From assembly GCA_021816625.1 (NCBI GenBank), contig JAKAXM010000003.1, forward strand, positions 62,001 through 126,000: a stretch of 64,000 nucleotides of DNA, in the 5' to 3' direction. The notes beneath the pieces are model-generated. The model searched no databases, was not told where the DNA came from, and saw nothing but the letters and a program-made list of their open reading frames with translations. Source of the DNA: Pseudomonadota bacterium (GTDB taxonomy: Bacteria; Pseudomonadota; Gammaproteobacteria; Acidiferrobacterales; Acidiferrobacteraceae). Below, piece after piece: positions 15,508 to 27,857 of this stretch (its first letter is position 1; each line of letters starts with the position of its first letter). The translations under genes were made by a program, and so were the position numbers.

Positions 15508-18060
15508 CTAGACCTGGGCTTGGCCCCGGGCTTCCCGCTGGAGGGCAGGGCGGCCAAAGTAGTAGCCCTGGCCCCAATCGACGTCGAGTTCTAGCAAGGT
15601 CTCGGCGACGGCCGCTGTTTCTATACCTTCCGCGACGGTGGTGATACCAAGATCGTGACCGAGCCTTGCGATATCACGCACGATGGCAGCCATGCGCGGC
15701 TCGTGAATGACCCGTTCGACAAGCTGTTTTTCTATTTTAAGGAAGGACACCGGGAAGTCGGCGAGATAGAGAAAGGACGAGTAGCCGCTACCAAAGTCAT
15801 CGAGGGCGACCCGAAATCCGTATTCGAGGAGCGGCTCGAGGTGGCGCTTGACGGCGTGACGATCCCGCAGCATGGCCCGTTCGGTAATTTCGATGACGAA
15901 AGGCATGCCGCAGTCGCCCGGAAGCCCGGCCCGTTGGCGCTGACCTTTGGCGTCGTTCAGGAGATTGGCGAGGGTGTGCGCCTGGGCAAGCAGGCCAGCT
16001 GAGGCATTGACGAAATGCAGTAGGGGCGCGCCGTGCGCACCGGCGCGGGCCACGCATCGGCGCATCGTAAGGTCGATGACTGCCTGATCGATGCGTTGCA
16101 GCTGCCCGAGATGGGCCGCGGCATCGACGAATTGGCCGGCCTCTAGGATCTGACCATCCGGCAGCACGAGCCGTGCGAGTGACTCGTCCGCGACGACTGT
16201 TCCCGTTTTCAGGGCGACTATGGGTTGGGCCGCCGCCACGATGCGACCATTGGTCAGGGCCTCCTCAATCTGGCCGCCGATCAGGAAAATGCTGGGATTG
16301 GTGCCGGCACGACGGACCCGGTTGCCGCCCTCTTGTTTGGCCTGGTAGAGGGCCGCGTCGGCAGAGGTCATGAGATCGGCTGCGCGCTTCCCGTCTTCGG
16401 GAAAGCAGGCAACCCCGACACTTGCCGTGACGCGCAGCTCACGTCCGCGGACGAGGATGGGGGTTTGTGCGAGCCGATGATTGATCCGTTCCATGGTTTG
16501 GAGGGCGGTTTGCGGTTCGGCGTCGGGTAAAAAACATAGAAATTCCTCGCCACCCCAGCGGCCTACGAGATCCCCTGCGCGTACGCCCGACCGCAGGATA
16601 TCGGCGGTGTGCATAAGGACCTCGTCACCGATGGTATGGCCGTAGGTGTCGTTTATGACCTTGAAGTGATCCAGGTCGATCAAGCCCAGGCAGTAGCTTC
16701 CTACCTGCCCCGGCCGCTGCGCGTGGCGCCGGGCCATGGCATCTTCAAGGACATTGCGCCGATAAAGGCCGGTCAGGATGTCGTGGTGGGCGAGGTAGGT
16801 GGCGCGTGACTCGGCGGCCTGTCGTCTTGCCTCCTGGTCGAATCCATCCAACGCAAACGAGATATCTTCGGCGATGCGTCGCAGCAAGTGTAAGAGTTTG
16901 TCGTCAAAGAAATTCGTCTCGTCGGAAAAGACGCACAGGGCGCCGTGGACGGCGCCGTCGCGCTTAAAGGGGAATGCCGCCGCTGAACCGGACCAGGATG
17001 TGCGGGGAGGTGACAAGCCTCCGGCTGGCGCCACCTCCATACCTTGCTCGATAACGGCCTCAGCGGCGCTGATCGCCGCCTGCGACAGGGCGAGGACGGT
17101 TGGGTCGGGGACCGCCGATCCCGGGATATTCTGGTCGCAATAGCGTGCCGCGATCTCGGAGGGGCCTGTGGGAGATCCGGCCGTTGTTATCGAGGCGCAG
17201 CGTAAATGGCCATAATCTACTGCAGTCCGGCATATACCCTCAAAGAGGGCCTGCGGCGTCGTCCGACAGGCGACGAGCTGATCCACCTGGCAAAGCGCCG
17301 AGTAAAAGTCGGTGACATGCTGTAGGCGCTCCTCGGACTCCTTGCGGTCGGTGATGTCGTGGCTTATCGCGACGTGATGGCTAATGGCGCCCGACTCATC
17401 GCGCACCACGCTGATCGTGAGCCATTGCGGAAAGATCTCGCCATTCTTACGCCGGTCCCATATCTCTCCTTGCCAATGGCCGCTTTCCAACACCGAGCGC
17501 CAAAGGGCGACGTAGAAGGCTTGGTCATGCCGGCCCGATTGCAGGAGGTTTGGAGATTTGCCGATCACCTCGTCTGCCGTGTAGCCCGTGAGGCGTTCAA
17601 AGGCTGGGTTTACGGCCACGATGCGGTTGGCGGCGTTCGTTACCATGATGGCCTGGATGCTGTTGTCGAAGACGGCTGCCGCCAGGTTCTCTTTGTAGGC
17701 CGCCTCGGTATGCCATGTCATGTCGCGCAACACGGCGACGTAGGCGCGCGCCGGTCCTTCGCACACCGCGCTGATACTCATGTCGCCCAGAAATGTGTCG
17801 TTTACCCCTCGCTGGAAAAAGGCGCTATAGCAGAGGCTGTCAGGTCGTGTGCTGTCAGGGTGCGGCCGGATCGATGCGCCGGTGCGCCAGTGGCGCAGGC
17901 TCATGCCGATCAGGGCCGACCGTTCGCAAGCCAGTGTCCGACAGGCCTCGTCGTTTGCGGCCTGAATGACCCCCTGCTCATCCAGGATAAAGACTGCGTC
18001 GGTGCTAAACGTCAGCAGGAACTCGAGCTTGCTACGCAGTTTGCCGTCCGGTTGCTGCAT
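15508..18060 (-). CDS. PAS-PAS-GAF-GGDEF-EAL cyclic-di-GMP protein
   Basis: An 850-residue soluble sensor that may make and degrade cyclic di-GMP. It has PAS 1 (about 8-115), PAS 2 (about 130-250, ending HDITDRKESE), GAF (about 255-420), GGDEF (about 430-595) and EAL (about 605-845). The diguanylate cyclase signature is intact (GRWGGEEF) and is preceded by an RAGD inhibitory-site motif. In the EAL domain the name motif reads ESL. EITERAM, DDFGSGYSS, VAEGIE and QGYYFGRP are kept, but the LKID position is LKIEK. Both activities are therefore possible, with the phosphodiesterase slightly atypical. No membrane segments are seen, so PAS/GAF ligands are sensed in the cytoplasm. Confidence 0.9.
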   Translation of the reverse strand: MQQPDGKLRSKLEFLLTFSTDAVFILDEQGVIQAANDEACRTLACERSALIGMSLRHWRTGASIRPHPDSTRPDSLCYSAFFQRGVNDTFLGDMSISAVCEGPARAYVAVLRDMTWHTEAAYKENLAAAVFDNSIQAIMVTNAANRIVAVNPAFERLTGYTADEVIGKSPNLLQSGRHDQAFYVALWRSVLESGHWQGEIWDRRKNGEIFPQWLTISVVRDESGAISHHVAISHDITDRKESEERLQHVTDFYSALCQVDQLVACRTTPQALFEGICRTAVDYGHLRCASITTAGSPTGPSEIAARYCDQNIPGSAVPDPTVLALSQAAISAAEAVIEQGMEVAPAGGLSPPRTSWSGSAAAFPFKRDGAVHGALCVFSDETNFFDDKLLHLLRRIAEDISFALDGFDQEARRQAAESRATYLAHHDILTGLYRRNVLEDAMARRHAQRPGQVGSYCLGLIDLDHFKVINDTYGHTIGDEVLMHTADILRSGVRAGDLVGRWGGEEFLCFLPDAEPQTALQTMERINHRLAQTPILVRGRELRVTASVGVACFPEDGKRAADLMTSADAALYQAKQEGGNRVRRAGTNPSIFLIGGQIEEALTNGRIVAAAQPIVALKTGTVVADESLARLVLPDGQILEAGQFVDAAAHLGQLQRIDQAVIDLTMRRCVARAGAHGAPLLHFVNASAGLLAQAHTLANLLNDAKGQRQRAGLPGDCGMPFVIEITERAMLRDRHAVKRHLEPLLEYGFRVALDDFGSGYSSFLYLADFPVSFLKIEKQLVERVIHEPRMAAIVRDIARLGHDLGITTVAEGIETAAVAETLLELDVDWGQGYYFGRPALQREARGQAQV

Positions 18061-19130: not shown

Positions 19131-19158
19131 CAAAAAGCCGGCCCCTTTCGGGCCGGCT
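19131..19158 (-). terminator. Rho-independent terminator of the globin transcript
   Basis: AGCCGGCC (19136-19143) and GGCCGGCT (19151-19158) form a perfect eight-base stem with a seven-base loop. On the minus strand it is followed by TTTTTG. It lies 25 bases beyond the globin stop, so it ends the DUF3034-globin transcript. Confidence 0.85.
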
Positions 19159-19183
19159 CCAGAACGAACAATCCGAACATCCA

Positions 19184-19621
19184 TTAGCGAGTTACAATCT
19201 GAGACTCCATGGGCGCCAATTTAGAAAGAAGGTTGTTTTGGGCAGCAACCGGAATATGCTGACGGTCCATGCCCTTTATAAGATCCGAAACAAGGGCATT
19301 AAAGGCCGCTTCATTAACACCAAGGCCCCTATGGACGCTGGACATACTGGGGCCGGTGTAGGTGCATGGCCCACCTTCCTCCTGGCAAAACTGGTCAGTC
19401 AGAGCGGATTTAAGAGATGGAATATCTGTCGTGGCAAAATAATGCGATATGCGACTATCCGATAAGACGTAACCGACAAACCTATTAACGACTGCCCTGA
19501 TGCCGGCTTTCTCGCCAAATTGCTGGTAATACGTATTTTTGGCAAAGGCTGATGTAAAAGGTAAAAGCAAAGCTGCAACAACGGCGGCGCGACGGACAAA
19601 ACCTGTACGAACGGTACGCAT
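19184..19621 (-). CDS. Exported group 1 truncated haemoglobin
   Basis: A 145-residue globin with signal peptide (about 1-27, ending in SAFA), so it should act in the periplasm. The 2-on-2 fold is recognisable from YYQQFGEKAGIRAVVNRF, the GGPCTYTG loop and SSVHRGLGV, which supplies proximal His97. Aligned by eye with Mycobacterium TrHbN, the distal positions B10, E7 and E11 are Val49, Leu70 and Leu74, where TrHbN has Tyr, Leu and Gln. The pocket is thus apolar and unlike classic oxygen or NO-detoxifying forms. Cys79 and Cys86 could form a disulfide, in keeping with export. It follows the DUF3034 gene by 28 bases on the same transcript. Confidence 0.88.
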   Translation of the reverse strand: MRTVRTGFVRRAAVVAALLLPFTSAFAKNTYYQQFGEKAGIRAVVNRFVGYVLSDSRISHYFATTDIPSLKSALTDQFCQEEGGPCTYTGPSMSSVHRGLGVNEAAFNALVSDLIKGMDRQHIPVAAQNNLLSKLAPMESQIVTR

Positions 19622-19649
19622 AGCGGTCTCCTTTGAGAAAACGAATCAA

Positions 19650-20651
19650 CTAAAAGCTTGCCGTGATGGACGTGTATAAACCGGACTGGTTCGGGATAGT
19701 GGCGACCTGACCGAGCATCGCGTAAGCGAAAGTCACGGAGAAGTACTTGTTTGGTATATACGCAACGTACAGATCTTTCCACGCATTTGTCTTGCTGAGC
19801 GCATTTCCGGTCGGATTATTGCCCACGAGCTGATTTCGCGGCATCGCCCTGTACTCGCCACCAAGAACGACATGGCGGTTCAAAAATATGCCAGCCGAAA
19901 CCTCCGGCTCGTAATGATATCTGCTATTATTAAACCCTTCGAATCCGAGCAAACCGTTCTGATTAGCACGGGTCGCATCTACGTCGATGTCGAGTAATGT
20001 TGTGTGACCAAAAAGGCCATCAAGCCATATCTTGGTCGCTGCCAGATAATAGCTTGTACCCTGACTCTTGCTGCCTAGAACCCCGAGAAGGCTCGATCCT
20101 CCTCCAAATCCGAGGTTATCATTGCGGTGATACTGCACCCCTAGTGCAACCTGAGGGAGCCAGGTGTTCTGTTGATACACTGCATTACCAAACAAGCGGA
20201 CCTTAAGGCCTACGATGTCTTGACTCAAATCGGCCCCGTTCTGGAACGGGGCATTGCTGCCTGCGGGGGCACCTAATTCGGTGTCCAGGAAATTGGCCGT
20301 ATTACCGAGACCGAGCGTCTGCTTCGTCAGCGATATCTCAACACGATTAGCGATACCAACAGACCCCCCATACGCATTGAAGATGTAATTGGAGGTTGCC
20401 AGATTGGTATAAAATGCGGTGTATCCGATTTGCTCATTGTCTCCGTATCCGCCAATGAGGGCCCACGGAACAATGCCGCCCCCGGCGGCGCCACTGACCG
20501 TCGTAACGCCTCCTGTCCCTAATATCCTTCCTTCCCCAAAGACTCCGGCGTGTGCCTGACGCATACCCAAGGTCAAACTCCCCCCGACGATGGTGGCGAG
20601 CACGGCCAGCCCTACCGTGCCGCTTAGCACCTGAAGTGGTTTTTTTCTCAT
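19650..20651 (-). CDS. DUF3034 family protein, probable outer-membrane beta-barrel
   Basis: 333 residues with a long signal peptide (about 1-35, ending AHA). The mature protein has the DUF3034 pattern: glycine-rich start GRILGTGGVTTVSGAAGGGIVPWALIGGYG, then alternating hydrophobic strands such as VEISLTKQTLGLG, LFGHTTLLDIDVDATRANQN and HVVLGGEYRAMP, ending TSITASF. The terminal Phe and strand pattern suggest an outer-membrane barrel. The family's function is unknown. It is the first gene of the globin transcript and faces the ECF sigma gene across 247 bases, which suggests joint regulation. A GAGGAC ribosome site precedes the ATG. Confidence 0.82.
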   Translation of the reverse strand: MRKKPLQVLSGTVGLAVLATIVGGSLTLGMRQAHAGVFGEGRILGTGGVTTVSGAAGGGIVPWALIGGYGDNEQIGYTAFYTNLATSNYIFNAYGGSVGIANRVEISLTKQTLGLGNTANFLDTELGAPAGSNAPFQNGADLSQDIVGLKVRLFGNAVYQQNTWLPQVALGVQYHRNDNLGFGGGSSLLGVLGSKSQGTSYYLAATKIWLDGLFGHTTLLDIDVDATRANQNGLLGFEGFNNSRYHYEPEVSAGIFLNRHVVLGGEYRAMPRNQLVGNNPTGNALSKTNAWKDLYVAYIPNKYFSVTFAYAMLGQVATIPNQSGLYTSITASF

Positions 20652-20898
20652 CTCGAATGTCCTCAGCAGTTAAAGGCGCGATGTGGCCTGGTTGGCCCAA
20701 GAGGCCTTTCCCCCAGTCCGCCCCTCGATTACGCGTGAGGCCAGCTTTTAGATTCACGCACTATCAACTCAATTCGCAAACACACAACCGGCGCCTAGTT
20801 TTTGCTTCCGCAGCCGTTGACGCGGCCTACAAGGGCTTGCCCCAAGCAAGGCGGGTCTCTATGCTGATAACCCTTCTCACACCATAGGCCTATTCGGA
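20652..20898. promoter_or_regulatory. Divergent promoter region between DUF3034 and ECF sigma genes
   Basis: The 247-base interval must hold promoters in both directions. No convincing sigma-70 promoter is visible. The neighbouring sigma factor may read one or both promoters, as ECF factors commonly autoregulate (inference). Confidence 0.4.
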
Positions 20899-21465
20899 TT
20901 GTCTGAGCCTCTCGTCAGTGCCCCCGGCGCGGATGAAATACCGGAACTAATGGCCCGCATTCAAGACGGTAACCAATCTGCGCTCCACCAGTTGTATTCT
21001 TTAACGGCGCCGAAACTCTTTGCTGTCGCCCTACGTATAGTCAAGAGACGGGAGCTTGCGGAGGACGTGGTTCAAGACGCCTTTGTCCGTATTTGGCGGA
21101 ACTGTCGCGATTACAGCCCGGAAAAAGGATCCGTATGGGGATGGATTGCAACGATTGTGCGTAATGGGGCTATCGACTGCGTGCGTCGGGACCGGGAAAT
21201 TTTGGTGGATCCCGAGGAGAGCCTATGGGAACGCCCAGACCCGGGCGATGGGCCGCTGCGCACCATTTTGCGTCGTGAAGAGGCAAGAAGCATAAAAAGA
21301 TGCCTAGATCAACTACCGAAGGACCAACGGCAAGCGATTCTGGTAGCCTATTACGAAGGATATACTCACGACGCGATTGCCGAACGTCTCGGTGCCCCTT
21401 TAGGGACGATCAAGACATGGATACGTCGCGGTCTCTTACGCATTAAAGAGTGTCTGCAATCATGA
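20899..21465 (+). CDS. ECF-type RNA polymerase sigma factor (SigK/RskA group)
   Basis: A 188-residue alternative sigma factor. Region 2 runs about 25-95 (HQLYSLTAPKLFAVALRIVK, AEDVVQDAFVRIWRN) and region 4 about 125-185 (LPKDQRQAILVAYYEGYTHDAIAERL, LGTIKTWIRRGL). Region 3 is absent, as in ECF factors. It overlaps the anti-sigma gene in an ATGA arrangement, a common sign of stoichiometric production. The start is uncertain: TTG at 20899 gives the full length, while ATG at 20950 lacks 17 residues and keeps both domains. The likely regulon includes the divergent DUF3034-globin genes. Confidence 0.9.
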   Translation: MSEPLVSAPGADEIPELMARIQDGNQSALHQLYSLTAPKLFAVALRIVKRRELAEDVVQDAFVRIWRNCRDYSPEKGSVWGWIATIVRNGAIDCVRRDREILVDPEESLWERPDPGDGPLRTILRREEARSIKRCLDQLPKDQRQAILVAYYEGYTHDAIAERLGAPLGTIKTWIRRGLLRIKECLQS

Positions 21466-22160
21466 AGCTGGCAAATAAAGATCTACAGATCATGTTGGCC
21501 GGAGAGTATGTTGTAGGAACGCTGACAGGTCGGGCCCGCCGCCGCTTCGAAAGGCTCCTAAAAACACGCGTAGATCTCCGCGCCGCCGTGAAAGAATGGG
21601 AGCAAGACCTGTCACCCCTCACGCTCGACGTACAGCCTATGAGCCCACCCCCTGCGCTATGGGGAAAAATCGCCAAAGAAATCGGCGGCGATGGCGTTCG
21701 CACGAAGGCGCGCCAAAAGGTCAACATATGGCCGGGGATAGCCCTAGCCGCCAGCCTGACCGCCGCGACTTTTGCGGGTCTGTTTGCGGCCAATTTGAGC
21801 CGCCAGCAACAACCCCTTTACGTCGCCATCCTCGGAAGCAGCGCAAATCCAGCGTGGGTCATGACACTGGTCCACGGGGGCCGGACGCTCGACGTGTCTG
21901 CTGTCCATCCTATCCCCTCTAAAGGTCATAGCTATCAATTGTGGATGCTGCCGGGAAAAGGACAGCCACCTCAATCCCTAGGTCTCTTGCCGGTCCGAGC
22001 CGACTCCACCATTCATGTTAGGATTCCATCCAATCTCCGCCTGGCATCAGCTCAAGGGCTCGCAGTCAGCCTGGAGCCCCCCAAAGGCTCCCCTCTTGCA
22101 GGCCCGAGCGGTCCCGTCGTTTATCAGGCCGTCTGGCTGCATATCGTACAGTCCAGTTGA
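21462..22160 (+). CDS. RskA-family anti-sigma factor
   Basis: A membrane anti-sigma factor of 232 residues. The cytoplasmic N-terminal domain (1-88) begins with the AGEYVVGTLTGRARRRFERLL helix. A single membrane helix lies at about 90-111. The periplasmic RskA domain follows, ending in LAVSLEPPKGSPLAGPSGPVVYQ. There is no zinc HxxxCxxC motif, so it is not a ZAS redox sensor. The periplasmic domain would sense an envelope signal and release the sigma factor by proteolysis, as known for RskA. It is translationally coupled to the sigma gene. Confidence 0.9.
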   Translation: MKLANKDLQIMLAGEYVVGTLTGRARRRFERLLKTRVDLRAAVKEWEQDLSPLTLDVQPMSPPPALWGKIAKEIGGDGVRTKARQKVNIWPGIALAASLTAATFAGLFAANLSRQQQPLYVAILGSSANPAWVMTLVHGGRTLDVSAVHPIPSKGHSYQLWMLPGKGQPPQSLGLLPVRADSTIHVRIPSNLRLASAQGLAVSLEPPKGSPLAGPSGPVVYQAVWLHIVQSS

Positions 22161-22222
22161 ATCTAAAAACGTGCGCCCCCCCGTACTAAGGTCAGTCGTT
22201 CCGATCATTCATCAGGGGGGTT

Positions 22223-22507
22223 ATGGCTACGACGGCACCCACATTGCCTATCATAAGCGCGCAAGACGATGTCCATGTCAAGCGGCGCCGCGACTTTTTA
22301 AAGCAGCGTGGTGCATTAGGCTTTGCAACGATCGCCTTGGCCGTGAGAGGTCTGGGCCTGGATGAGCGCAGACCAAATCCGCGAGTACAGAAGCGTATAC
22401 CCCCGGCCAACGGGTGCTCGCAGGTGGGCCGGCCGGGCTCCCGTCGTCAGGGGTCCCCGAATTTACCGATCTTTTGGAAAAGCGGCCAGACGCACACCGA
22501 CGCTTGA
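22223..22507 (+). CDS. Short Tat-signal-like protein, probably frameshifted
   Basis: A strong AGGGGGG site precedes the ATG. The N terminus contains KRRRDFLKQ followed by a hydrophobic stretch (GALGFATIALAVRGLG), which matches a twin-arginine export signal with RRDFLK. After about residue 52 this frame turns into low-quality sequence and stops at 94 residues. A second frame stays open across the same DNA and gives a more protein-like end, GVPEFTDLLEKRPDAHRRLR, to a stop at 22540-22542. One frameshift would join them. Function is unknown. It follows the anti-sigma gene and may belong to the same transcript. Confidence 0.4.
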   Translation: MATTAPTLPIISAQDDVHVKRRRDFLKQRGALGFATIALAVRGLGLDERRPNPRVQKRIPPANGCSQVGRPGSRRQGSPNLPIFWKSGQTHTDA

Positions 22508-24546: not shown

Positions 24547-27000
24547 CTAAAACTTCGTGCTCAGGGACACCTCGAAGGATCGGGGCGCGCCCGGCTCGCT
24601 GAGCAGTTGTCCGGCCACTCCGTAATACCCGCCGCTGCTTATGTATTCGTAGGCGTTGTATTGCTTATTGAGCAGGTTGTAGATGCCAACACTGATGTTG
24701 ACTCGGTGCACATCAGCACCCAGATCACTGTGGCCTACGGCAATCTTCAGGGCCGCGTTCCAGATCCCGAATGGCGGAAGTTTTTGTCTTGTGGGTGCAT
24801 TGGTGTTGTTGTTGTATATGTCCTGGGCACCCGTGTATTGCCACCAGAGGCTTGGGGTATAAACGACACCGCTTTGGTACATGGCGTAGGATGCCCCAAT
24901 ATTGGCGGTCTCCGCTGGCACGTTCGACACCGGAAGACCGTCGTAGGATCCTCCGCTGGGCGTTGTATATTGCGAATACCGAGCGCGTTCGAAACTTACG
25001 TTGGCGAACACGTGTAGCGTGTAGATGGGATTGTCATCGGCGTAGATGTTGACGCCGCTGAAGCGCGACGATCCCGATGCGAAGAGGCTATAAAGGTGGC
25101 TTACCACCGGTATTGGTATGATCTCATTCGTGTCATCGAGATTGTAGTAGTTGGCTCCGAATGCGGCGTTCTTCAGGAGCCCATCGTGGCGCACATAACC
25201 TTTCAGGCCGACCTGGTACTGCGTGGACTTCTGAGGTGCCAGCGAACTTGCCAATAGGTGGGCGTAGGTGCCGGTGGCGCCGGCGGGCGCTTTGTATGCC
25301 GTCGAATAATTGGCATAGAGCGCCAGACCTTTTGTGAGTTGCCAGTTAGCGCCGAGCGATGGCTCAAGTTCACTGAACGTAGTCGATGAGTTCGGTGCAT
25401 TGTTGCCCCCGGTGCCGTCACCGTTTGTGCCGATCTGGTCTGTTACGTTGATCGGGAATTCCGACGCGGCGTTATTGACGAAATTGGTCTGGAAGCTCAC
25501 GACGCGGATGCCCGGGGTTATGCGCAGGGCGCGCAGGGGCTGGATGTCGTCTTGAATAAAGGCAGCGAGATCCGTCATATAAAGGTAGGAGTCGTGGTAA
25601 TGGCTGGGCAGCGACATGCTGTAGTTGACCGCCTGCCCATTGACCGTCGCGTTGCTGCCGGCGTTGGGCCCATAGGCATATTGGGCAGGCAGGGCGGGGT
25701 TGTAGAACTCGAGAAGCGAGGCATACTTGCTGGTTAAGTAATATCCGCCAGTCGAGATATCGTTGTAGGGGGCGCGGATATCGAAGTACAGCTTGTCGCC
25801 ATAAGTGTCGCTGGTCGTGTAGTAATACTGATCGAGGACGTTGTTGTTGTTGCCGTAGTTGTCGTAGTGCAGGTGCTCTCTATGGCCGTAACGGTACCAT
25901 ATGAGGTTATGCATGGTAATGTCCTGCGACACGTGCGACACGAATCGCGAGTAGAGTAACTCGGTGCTGACGATGCTCTGCTTCCAGTATTCGCTGTACG
26001 GCAAGGTTGTGTAGAACCCGGTCGTCTGCTGGCTATAGAGTGGCCCCGGATTCACCGCACCGGTCGCGGGATTGACGCCATTGACGGTAACGTTCGGATT
26101 TGGGCTTACCGGAATGGGCAGGGGCCGATAGGATTCGGCGCGGGCGTCGTAGGCCCCAAAGCTTACATGGCCGCCATGAAAGGTTTTGCGGAATTTGGCG
26201 TAGTAGGCATGGTTTTTTGAGGGGTTGTCGAACCCGTAACCATGGAGGTAGTTACCGTCGCCCTTGGTGACGCCACCGGCCACGACCCCGGACCAACCGT
26301 CGCCCATTGTGCCTGTCTGGACGCGGAAATTTTCTCCGTAAGTGCCGAAGCTTCCGGCAAACGCCCCAATGGTCGCACTGAAATGCCGGCTGGGCTGGAT
26401 GGGGCTTAGGTTCACGGCCCCTCCGATGTTGTTGTACCAGCGGTTTACCGCGTAACCCGGCCCGTAGGTTACGGACATGGCCTGTATCAAGGAAAGCTGC
26501 GGGACTTCGGAGGCCTGCCAGACCGTGTAGGCGGGATCTATCATCGGTACGCCGTCGAAGGTCACCATGACCGTGCCGTCATTGGCATTGCCGGCGATAT
26601 TGCCCCAGCCGGTCTTCATACCGTTGATACTGATGCTAGAGCGCGGCGCGCCGGTAACGCCTTCGGCCATGACATTCACCCCCGGCGCGACGGCGAGCGC
26701 CTGGGCGGCTCCGTTTGCGGGACCTGCGACTGCCATCTGCTTTTTGCCGATCACCTTGATCGACTGGGTGGACTTGAAGACCTGTTTTTTTGTAGGCGTC
26801 CCCTCCAGCGTATTCAAGGCGCGCGAACCCGCCGAGACGTTGCCGACGTTGATGGGGGTGGCGCCGGACTGTGGGGCGGCGGTGCTGGTTTGAGTGGCGG
26901 CCTTGGCGGCCGCGGTTGCGCACAGGAAGGCGAGCGCAAAAAGGTGTAGCGCAGGACGTGGGGTAAGGGCCTTGCGATCGCCGCGGGGTGTTACGGGCAT
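24547..27000 (-). CDS. TonB-dependent outer-membrane receptor
   Basis: An 817-residue receptor for uptake of a bound substrate across the outer membrane. It has a signal peptide to about residue 34, a plug domain (about 75-190, with GAPRSSISINGMKTGWGN, VMVTFDGVPM and the GPGYAVNRWYNNIGGAVNLS end) and a 22-strand barrel finishing in SFEVSLSTKF. The barrel is rich in Tyr, Asn and Gly and poor in charge. The ATG at 27000 follows AGGAGA; an ATG 15 codons earlier would overlap the upstream gene. The preceding regulator gene on the same strand probably controls it. Substrate cannot be named, and a metal-siderophore or other organic ligand is possible. Confidence 0.9.
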   Translation of the reverse strand: MPVTPRGDRKALTPRPALHLFALAFLCATAAAKAATQTSTAAPQSGATPINVGNVSAGSRALNTLEGTPTKKQVFKSTQSIKVIGKKQMAVAGPANGAAQALAVAPGVNVMAEGVTGAPRSSISINGMKTGWGNIAGNANDGTVMVTFDGVPMIDPAYTVWQASEVPQLSLIQAMSVTYGPGYAVNRWYNNIGGAVNLSPIQPSRHFSATIGAFAGSFGTYGENFRVQTGTMGDGWSGVVAGGVTKGDGNYLHGYGFDNPSKNHAYYAKFRKTFHGGHVSFGAYDARAESYRPLPIPVSPNPNVTVNGVNPATGAVNPGPLYSQQTTGFYTTLPYSEYWKQSIVSTELLYSRFVSHVSQDITMHNLIWYRYGHREHLHYDNYGNNNNVLDQYYYTTSDTYGDKLYFDIRAPYNDISTGGYYLTSKYASLLEFYNPALPAQYAYGPNAGSNATVNGQAVNYSMSLPSHYHDSYLYMTDLAAFIQDDIQPLRALRITPGIRVVSFQTNFVNNAASEFPINVTDQIGTNGDGTGGNNAPNSSTTFSELEPSLGANWQLTKGLALYANYSTAYKAPAGATGTYAHLLASSLAPQKSTQYQVGLKGYVRHDGLLKNAAFGANYYNLDDTNEIIPIPVVSHLYSLFASGSSRFSGVNIYADDNPIYTLHVFANVSFERARYSQYTTPSGGSYDGLPVSNVPAETANIGASYAMYQSGVVYTPSLWWQYTGAQDIYNNNTNAPTRQKLPPFGIWNAALKIAVGHSDLGADVHRVNISVGIYNLLNKQYNAYEYISSGGYYGVAGQLLSEPGAPRSFEVSLSTKF

Positions 27001-27041
27001 GACGGAATCTCCTGGGTCAAGGTGAAGGGATGTGCTCGGAT

Positions 27042-27857
27042 TCATTTACGGCGGACGCTCGCGCGCGCCGGGACGAGGCCCGGGGACATGGGCGGGGCGG
27101 CCGCGATGGCGTAGCGATAACCAAGGCGATGCACAGTTTCGATGCAATCGGGGAGTCCGGCATCCCGTAGACGTTTACGCAGTCGCGAGACACAAATGGT
27201 GAGCGCGCCGGGGGTCATAGGTTGCGTACCGGTAAGGCCAGAGCACAGACGTTCGGTCGTTAGAAGCTTGCCCGGACTGCGTGCGAGCTCGTGCAGAATG
27301 CAGAACTGACGCGGCGACAGGGCCAGGCGTTTGTCTCCGACCCGAATCTGGGCGATCAGGGGATCGATCCATAGACCGTTGGGGTCGGGGGCCGGTGGAA
27401 GGCCGGCGTCTTTACTTAAGTCCGTGGGCGCTTGGATGATCTGCGACAGGCCCCGCACCATGTCCGGCACATTGATGGGTACGGGGACAAATAGGGCGGC
27501 GCCCGCCACCAAGGCCATGGCGGCATGCTGAGGGGGACCTATCAGGATGACGGGCAGGGTGCCGGAGGTAGGTCCCGAGGGGCGCGGGCTTACGGCGGGG
27601 ATCCGATCGGTAATGACGGCGCTCGCGCCTAGCGCATGTGCGGCACGGTCGATATAGCGCAAACCCGGGATACGGTGACAGGTCCAGCCGATGCTGGTGA
27701 CGGCGTGGACGCACGGTAGGGCCAGACGGTTTGCGACACACAATAAGACTACGGGGCGTGCCGGGCGCTGGCCCCGTTTCTTCTGGATGGCGGCGGCCAC
27801 GAGCTTAATGCGGCAGATGGCCGTATGGATGAAAAGTGGTAGAAGACACATGCCCAA
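27042..27857 (-). CDS. Orphan OmpR-type winged-helix regulator with atypical receiver
   Basis: DNA-binding regulator of up to 271 residues; the true start is uncertain. The C-terminal winged helix (about 165-255) is clear: LALSPRQFCILHELARSPGKLLTTERL and ISRLRKRL-type ending with IETVHRLGYRYAI. The N-terminal part (about 35-145) follows the strand order of a receiver domain (PVVLLCVANR, SAVITDRIPAV, LPVILIGPP, LFVPVPINVPDMVRGL). It lacks the acidic pair after strand 1 and the lysine after strand 5 needed for phosphorylation. No histidine kinase is adjacent. It lies 41 bases upstream of the TonB receptor and probably shares its transcript, so ligand-dependent control is more likely than a two-component scheme. 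Confidence 0.72.
   Translation of the reverse strand: MGMCLLPLFIHTAICRIKLVAAAIQKKRGQRPARPVVLLCVANRLALPCVHAVTSIGWTCHRIPGLRYIDRAAHALGASAVITDRIPAVSPRPSGPTSGTLPVILIGPPQHAAMALVAGAALFVPVPINVPDMVRGLSQIIQAPTDLSKDAGLPPAPDPNGLWIDPLIAQIRVGDKRLALSPRQFCILHELARSPGKLLTTERLCSGLTGTQPMTPGALTICVSRLRKRLRDAGLPDCIETVHRLGYRYAIAAAPPMSPGLVPARASVRRK

Follow-up and report, generated by a model that had tools for sequence, protein, structure and literature searches.

Group 1 truncated haemoglobins include mycobacterial HbN, a known NO dioxygenase in which Tyr B10 and Gln E11 stabilise the bound O2. In Mycobacterium tuberculosis, the anti-sigma factor RskA keeps its neighbouring sigma factor bound and inhibited until proteolysis releases it (PMC7509140). 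Relatives of both systems face each other in the window (the whole 64,000-nucleotide stretch of DNA that was analysed, part of a 2.19 Mb draft genome, presumably of an Acidiferrobacter-like acidophile), where an exported globin is encoded beside a DUF3034 protein. We consider it probable that this DUF3034-globin operon is a copy of a conserved envelope module, coupled here to an ECF sigma/RskA-type pair.

The globin and DUF3034 genes lie in tandem with a gap of 28 bp, and the globin gene is followed by a strong intrinsic terminator with an 11-pair stem and a U-tract (-23 kcal/mol, z -3.9), which was not listed by the consensus scan. Regions 2 and 4 are the sole domains of the sigma factor, and its gene overlaps that of the anti-sigma factor by 16 bp. 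Hydropathy indicated a single transmembrane segment at about residues 96-114 of the anti-sigma factor, with the RskA_C domain behind it, and this C-terminal domain is predicted to be periplasmic. No sigma-70 promoter emerged from the consensus scan of the region; the sigma operon may nevertheless have a housekeeping-type promoter, missed by that scan, whose boxes and spacing are retained in three genus members. The first-pass annotation had described two gene pairs, a signal-peptide globin and a signal-peptide DUF3034 protein on one transcript with a clear terminator and, divergent from them, a coupled ECF sigma/RskA-type pair. Both pairs were confirmed; the picture had missed a ferritin-like gene of the ECF module, of which the window retains a remnant.

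Table 1. Coordinates of the locus features in the window
Feature	Position	Strand	Basis
Intrinsic terminator of the DUF3034-globin transcript	19134-19160	minus	RNA fold and U-tract
Exported group 1 truncated haemoglobin	19184-19621	minus	Pfam Bac_globin PF01152, E 1.6e-11
DUF3034 protein	19650-20651	minus	PF11231, E 1e-88
Candidate ECF promoter, TGAATCT-N16-CGTA	20730-20756	minus	78 bp upstream of DUF3034 start codon
Possible housekeeping-type promoter of sigma operon, TTGCCC-N17-TATGCT	20837-20865	plus	tentative assignment
ECF sigma factor, TTG start	20899-21465	plus	Sigma70_r2 and r4_2; TIGR02937
RskA-type anti-sigma factor	21450-22160	plus	PF10099 (RskA_C), E 6e-18; hydropathy
Second candidate ECF promoter, TGAATCT-N17-CGTA	22158-22185	plus	overlaps anti-sigma stop codon
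Remnant of Tat-exported ferritin-like gene	22223-22345	plus	61% identity to L046 ferritin N-terminus

Pairing of DUF3034 with an exported globin

We searched PF11231 in four genome samples and read the surroundings of the matches. The exported globin adjoined DUF3034 in 56 of the 66 loci outside the window's own family. For an independent test, we built a profile from 12 DUF3034-linked globins and applied it to the 398 Pseudomonadota genomes that had been searched for DUF3034; its scores separated cleanly, with at least 121 bits for the exported subfamily and at most 88 bits for all others. The exported subfamily was present in all 39 genomes with DUF3034 and in 2 of the 359 others (Fisher p ~5e-52, a value not corrected for kinship of the genomes). 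The two exceptions were G625 (L198 and L227) and G453. The pairing is far above chance and is kept across the phylum Pseudomonadota. These counts bear out the earlier proposal that the exported globin and an outer-membrane-type protein form a unit, and the outcome that would have spoken against it, that DUF3034 and such globins rarely occur together elsewhere, fails decisively. Literature searches on truncated globins that are exported, on DUF3034 together with globin and on RskA together with ferritin, in sources that covered few subscription journals, returned nothing relevant; one paper named DUF3034 a single time, in a legend about retrons. The pairing is thus not described in the papers searched.

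An exported cupredoxin-like protein, annotated as 'methylamine utilization protein' in named records, was encoded near DUF3034-globin in 46 loci, typically together with a membrane Cache-HAMP-GGDEF-EAL protein. In the cupredoxin-like protein, two His, one Cys and one Met (in the order His, Cys, His, Met) are invariant and might together make up a type 1 copper site. Since the cupredoxin and the Cache-GGDEF-EAL protein are the usual neighbours, a c-di-GMP output appears to be the norm for the module. No cupredoxin of the module's family was found in the window genome.

The globin of the window begins with MRTVRTGFVRRAAVVAALLLPFTSAFA followed by K, by sequence a clear signal peptide, and the globins of L044-L046 are alike in kind. 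Its closest solved relatives in the PDB were HbN-type group 1 truncated haemoglobins, and its structure model reached a pLDDT of 53. It has a Cys79/Cys86 pair, the proximal His97 (F8), and apolar residues at B10, E7 and E11. A residue comparison of 59 DUF3034-linked globins showed that the F8 His and the C-x6-C pair are each conserved in 58 of them, and that in nearly all of them B10 is L, V, I or M and E11 is L, I or F, with an aliphatic residue or Phe at E7 as well. Nearly every one starts, as judged by sequence, with a signal peptide or a lipobox. The PF01152 domain and the proximal F8 His place these globins in group 1, and the Tyr-B10/Gln-E11 distal pocket of HbN, which they lack, is typical of that group and not required for membership. 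The cytoplasmic paralogue in the window genome (L081) lacks the Cys pair and carries Tyr-B10 and Gln-E11. By these sequence features, the DUF3034-linked globins are a distinct and seemingly envelope-adapted subfamily. Cys79 and Cys86 probably form a disulfide, and the apolar pocket would be expected to stabilise O2 weakly.

The DUF3034 protein of the window matched PF11231 over its full length with 297.7 bits, against a curated cut-off of 25. It carries a signal peptide and ends in SITASF; the last residue is F, Y or W in 73 of 81 relatives. A signal peptide combined with a C-terminal aromatic residue is the usual signature of outer-membrane proteins, and this signature points to the outer membrane, where the protein would be inserted as a probable barrel. 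AlphaFold2, run on four close sequences only, gave a pLDDT of 25, and a PDB sequence search with DUF3034 returned chance matches only.

DUF3034 was also seen in other surroundings. A paralogue without globin lies directly downstream of a Proton_antipo_M and DabA pair, a DabBA inorganic-carbon transporter (L048:3515-7674, with equivalents in L047, L049, L050 and L052; all five are other genus members). In further families (L054-L056, L074, L076 and L077), DUF3034 lies near a Pyr_redox_2 flavoprotein with a weak sulfide dehydrogenase match, and the barrel family therefore seems to be reused with several envelope systems.

The ECF/RskA version and its candidate promoter

Adjacency of the ECF/RskA pair to DUF3034 is shared by the window with two sister genomes (L044 and L046) and also with G107 and G730, which belong to other families; in a third sister, G282, the same genes are apparently split over two contigs. 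G107 has an apparent operon of DUF3034, globin, cupredoxin, sigma and anti-sigma genes with the ferritin-like gene divergent, and the order in G730 is sigma, anti-sigma, ferritin, cytochrome c, DUF3034 and globin. Between families, identity among the sigma factors of the module is no more than 34-45%. A quick tree of DUF3034 placed the window clade with its genus paralogues, apart from G107, G730 and G732. We therefore rejected a single origin for the ECF-linked loci; the ECF link arose or was acquired at least twice. Because it adjoins DUF3034 in a handful of lineages only, the ECF/RskA pair is not needed for the module generally. It is a lineage variant, which together with a Tat-exported ferritin-like protein takes the place of the cupredoxin/GGDEF-EAL arm here and, independently, elsewhere.

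An alignment of the intergenic regions of the window, L044 and L046 revealed conservation of the GAATCY-N16-CGTA type upstream of DUF3034, from which we derived the motif TGAATCY-N16/17-CGTA; the choice of 16 or 17 as spacing was permitted only after the data had been seen. The window copy before DUF3034 is conserved in L046 and, with one change, in L044. The motif also precedes DUF3034 in the unrelated G107 and G732, the ferritin gene in G278, G282, G732, G107 and G635 (with N17 in G107 and in G635, which has no DUF3034), and the sigma gene itself in G732, where the sigma-anti-ferritin and DUF3034-globin genes are on different contigs. In L046, a copy with N16 stands in the same place as the second candidate promoter of the window, upstream of an intact ferritin gene.

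Across the whole of eight genomes, TGAATCY-N16-CGTA had few matches. Both exact matches in G278 and all three in G732 were upstream of DUF3034, ferritin or sigma, and two further exact matches in G000 had no convincing target gene. The loci examined, 2.95 million strand-bases in all, contained eight matches, seven of them at DUF3034, ferritin or sigma targets; the chance of the motif per 300-bp promoter region is ~1e-4. In G730, a variant match (TGACATCC) stood before the sigma gene only, and the cupredoxin gene of that genome had no motif upstream. None of the GGDEF-EAL-type loci had the strict motif upstream of DUF3034.

These data are good evidence that the motif marks a regulon which includes DUF3034-globin and ferritin and which extends, in some genomes, to the sigma gene itself. 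From its co-occurrence with the genes and its layout, we infer that the ECF factor of this locus reads the motif. Control of DUF3034-globin by the sigma factor, which the first-pass annotation had proposed, appears well supported, if not proven, because the same motif precedes DUF3034-globin, ferritin and sigma in unrelated genomes, even where these genes are unlinked. That proposal is supported in that the motif lies inside the divergent intergenic region (20652-20898) and at targets in unrelated genomes, and it needs narrowing in that the ECF/RskA link is only a lineage variant.

The ferritin-like protein (PF13668), which by sequence carries a twin-arginine signal, is the product of the third gene of the ECF module. 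The window keeps approximately its first 41 codons, after which homology ends, with the promoter motif still in place before them, and no intact copy was found in the window genome at E 1e-15. Having neither the cupredoxin nor an intact ferritin, the window's own module may therefore be partly decayed. Among the 398 Pseudomonadota genomes, the ferritin-like gene was present in 5, compared with 39 for DUF3034. In a 120-genome sample of the order of G107, DUF3034 occurred in 6 of 10 genomes with the ferritin and in 8 of 110 without it (p 1e-4). Related ferritins in L241-L245 and L201 were left out of the supporting evidence, since the ECF gene that precedes them is a different one and has no RskA hit with it; some relatives have cytochrome c genes next to them. 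In G625, a ferritin-like gene and an ECF-RskA pair are arranged divergently, and an ATCC-N16-CGTA site is present.

Possible function and comparison with known systems

In the reading we prefer, the envelope module would consist of an exported haem globin, probably braced by a disulfide, and a protein that is probably an outer-membrane barrel. Most bacteria would couple it, via the exported cupredoxin-like protein, to the membrane Cache-GGDEF-EAL c-di-GMP protein, and the window lineage would couple it to the ECF sigma/RskA-type pair instead. An envelope signal would relieve the anti-sigma factor, and the freed sigma factor would transcribe DUF3034-globin, as well as the Tat-exported ferritin-like gene where it is intact, from TGAATCY-N16/17-CGTA promoters. 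The globin might perhaps sense or handle a diatomic gas or a redox-active ligand in the periplasm; the first-pass annotation had suggested NO, sulfide or another haem ligand. More tentatively, and with rather more doubt than belief on our side, the globin, the cupredoxin-like protein and the barrel could make up a phylum-wide envelope receptor that reads a periplasmic ligand through an exported, disulfide-braced globin whose distal pocket does not suit O2 storage, and that has swappable outputs, c-di-GMP through Cache-GGDEF-EAL in most bacteria and RskA/ECF in a few.

The ECF pair could instead be a mere neighbour, with another regulator binding the TGAATC motif or with c-di-GMP signalling controlling DUF3034-globin, for example through the PAS-GGDEF-EAL protein encoded at 15508-18060. 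Most DUF3034-globin loci indeed have no ECF gene and adjoin GGDEF-EAL, and the window locus itself is flanked by a GGDEF-EAL protein and an HD-GYP-type protein. However, the motif has the layout of an ECF promoter and precedes the ferritin gene in the DUF3034-free G635 and, in G732, the sigma gene itself. We set aside the PAS-GGDEF-EAL gene as the usual c-di-GMP partner, as its sensors are PAS/GAF and not Cache-HAMP and its position is not conserved in the sisters. We regard the mere-neighbour explanation as unlikely.

As for function, our first choice is that the module senses or handles a diatomic or redox ligand in the envelope; two rivals rank behind it. The globin may be a periplasmic NO dioxygenase or peroxidase that receives electrons from the cupredoxin or cytochrome c, given the group 1 precedent of HbN and the exported redox proteins of these two kinds encoded beside the globin in many genomes. 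The apolar residues at B10 and E11 in nearly all 59 globins, in place of Tyr and Gln, argue against a standard NO dioxygenase, as does the missing cupredoxin of the window genome, and we give this enzyme reading a low probability, similar to that of the mere-neighbour explanation. Less probable still is a module for iron or haem, in which the globin would be the haem carrier, the barrel a channel and the ferritin-like protein an iron store. The ferritin-like gene shares the promoter motif, and a TonB-dependent receptor is encoded nearby at 24547-27045. Such a receptor, however, had no conserved link to the module in the loci examined, the ferritin-like gene is much rarer than DUF3034, and the globin keeps its proximal His and globin core.

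DUF3034, a large family of unknown function, thereby gains an almost obligate partner and a probable compartment, and a truncated globin subfamily is identified that appears adapted to life outside the cytoplasm, in the periplasm or at the outer membrane. Two alternative, testable regulators are named for the module. If the regulator swap is real, comparing the two versions would reveal the signal of the module. The ECF version would offer a simple reporter through its TGAATC-N16-CGTA promoter.

Compared with known systems, the window's DUF3034 protein is a full-length member of a family without assigned function (PF11231). The operons of DUF3034, group 1 truncated haemoglobin, 'methylamine utilization protein' and EAL on Caballeronia and Novosphingobium plasmids contain the same globin and DUF3034 tandem; however, their regulatory arm is GGDEF-EAL and not ECF/RskA, and they have the cupredoxin-like protein absent from the window genome. 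The module globin shares the fold family, the proximal F8 His and the GGP-x-x-Y-x-G region with group 1 truncated haemoglobins such as HbN and cyanoglobin (PF01152), but differs from them in its signal peptide or lipobox, its C-x6-C pair, its apolar B10, E7 and E11 in place of Tyr/Gln, and its tie to DUF3034. As in SigK/RskA of M. tuberculosis (ECF19; PMC7406223, PMC7509140), an ECF sigma factor is paired with a membrane RskA_C anti-sigma factor. The window sigma factor scored 142.7 bits against the SigK model (NCBIfam PRK09646), below the cut-off of 226, and the regulon of the module, as judged by the motif, would differ in comprising the globin, the barrel and the ferritin-like protein.
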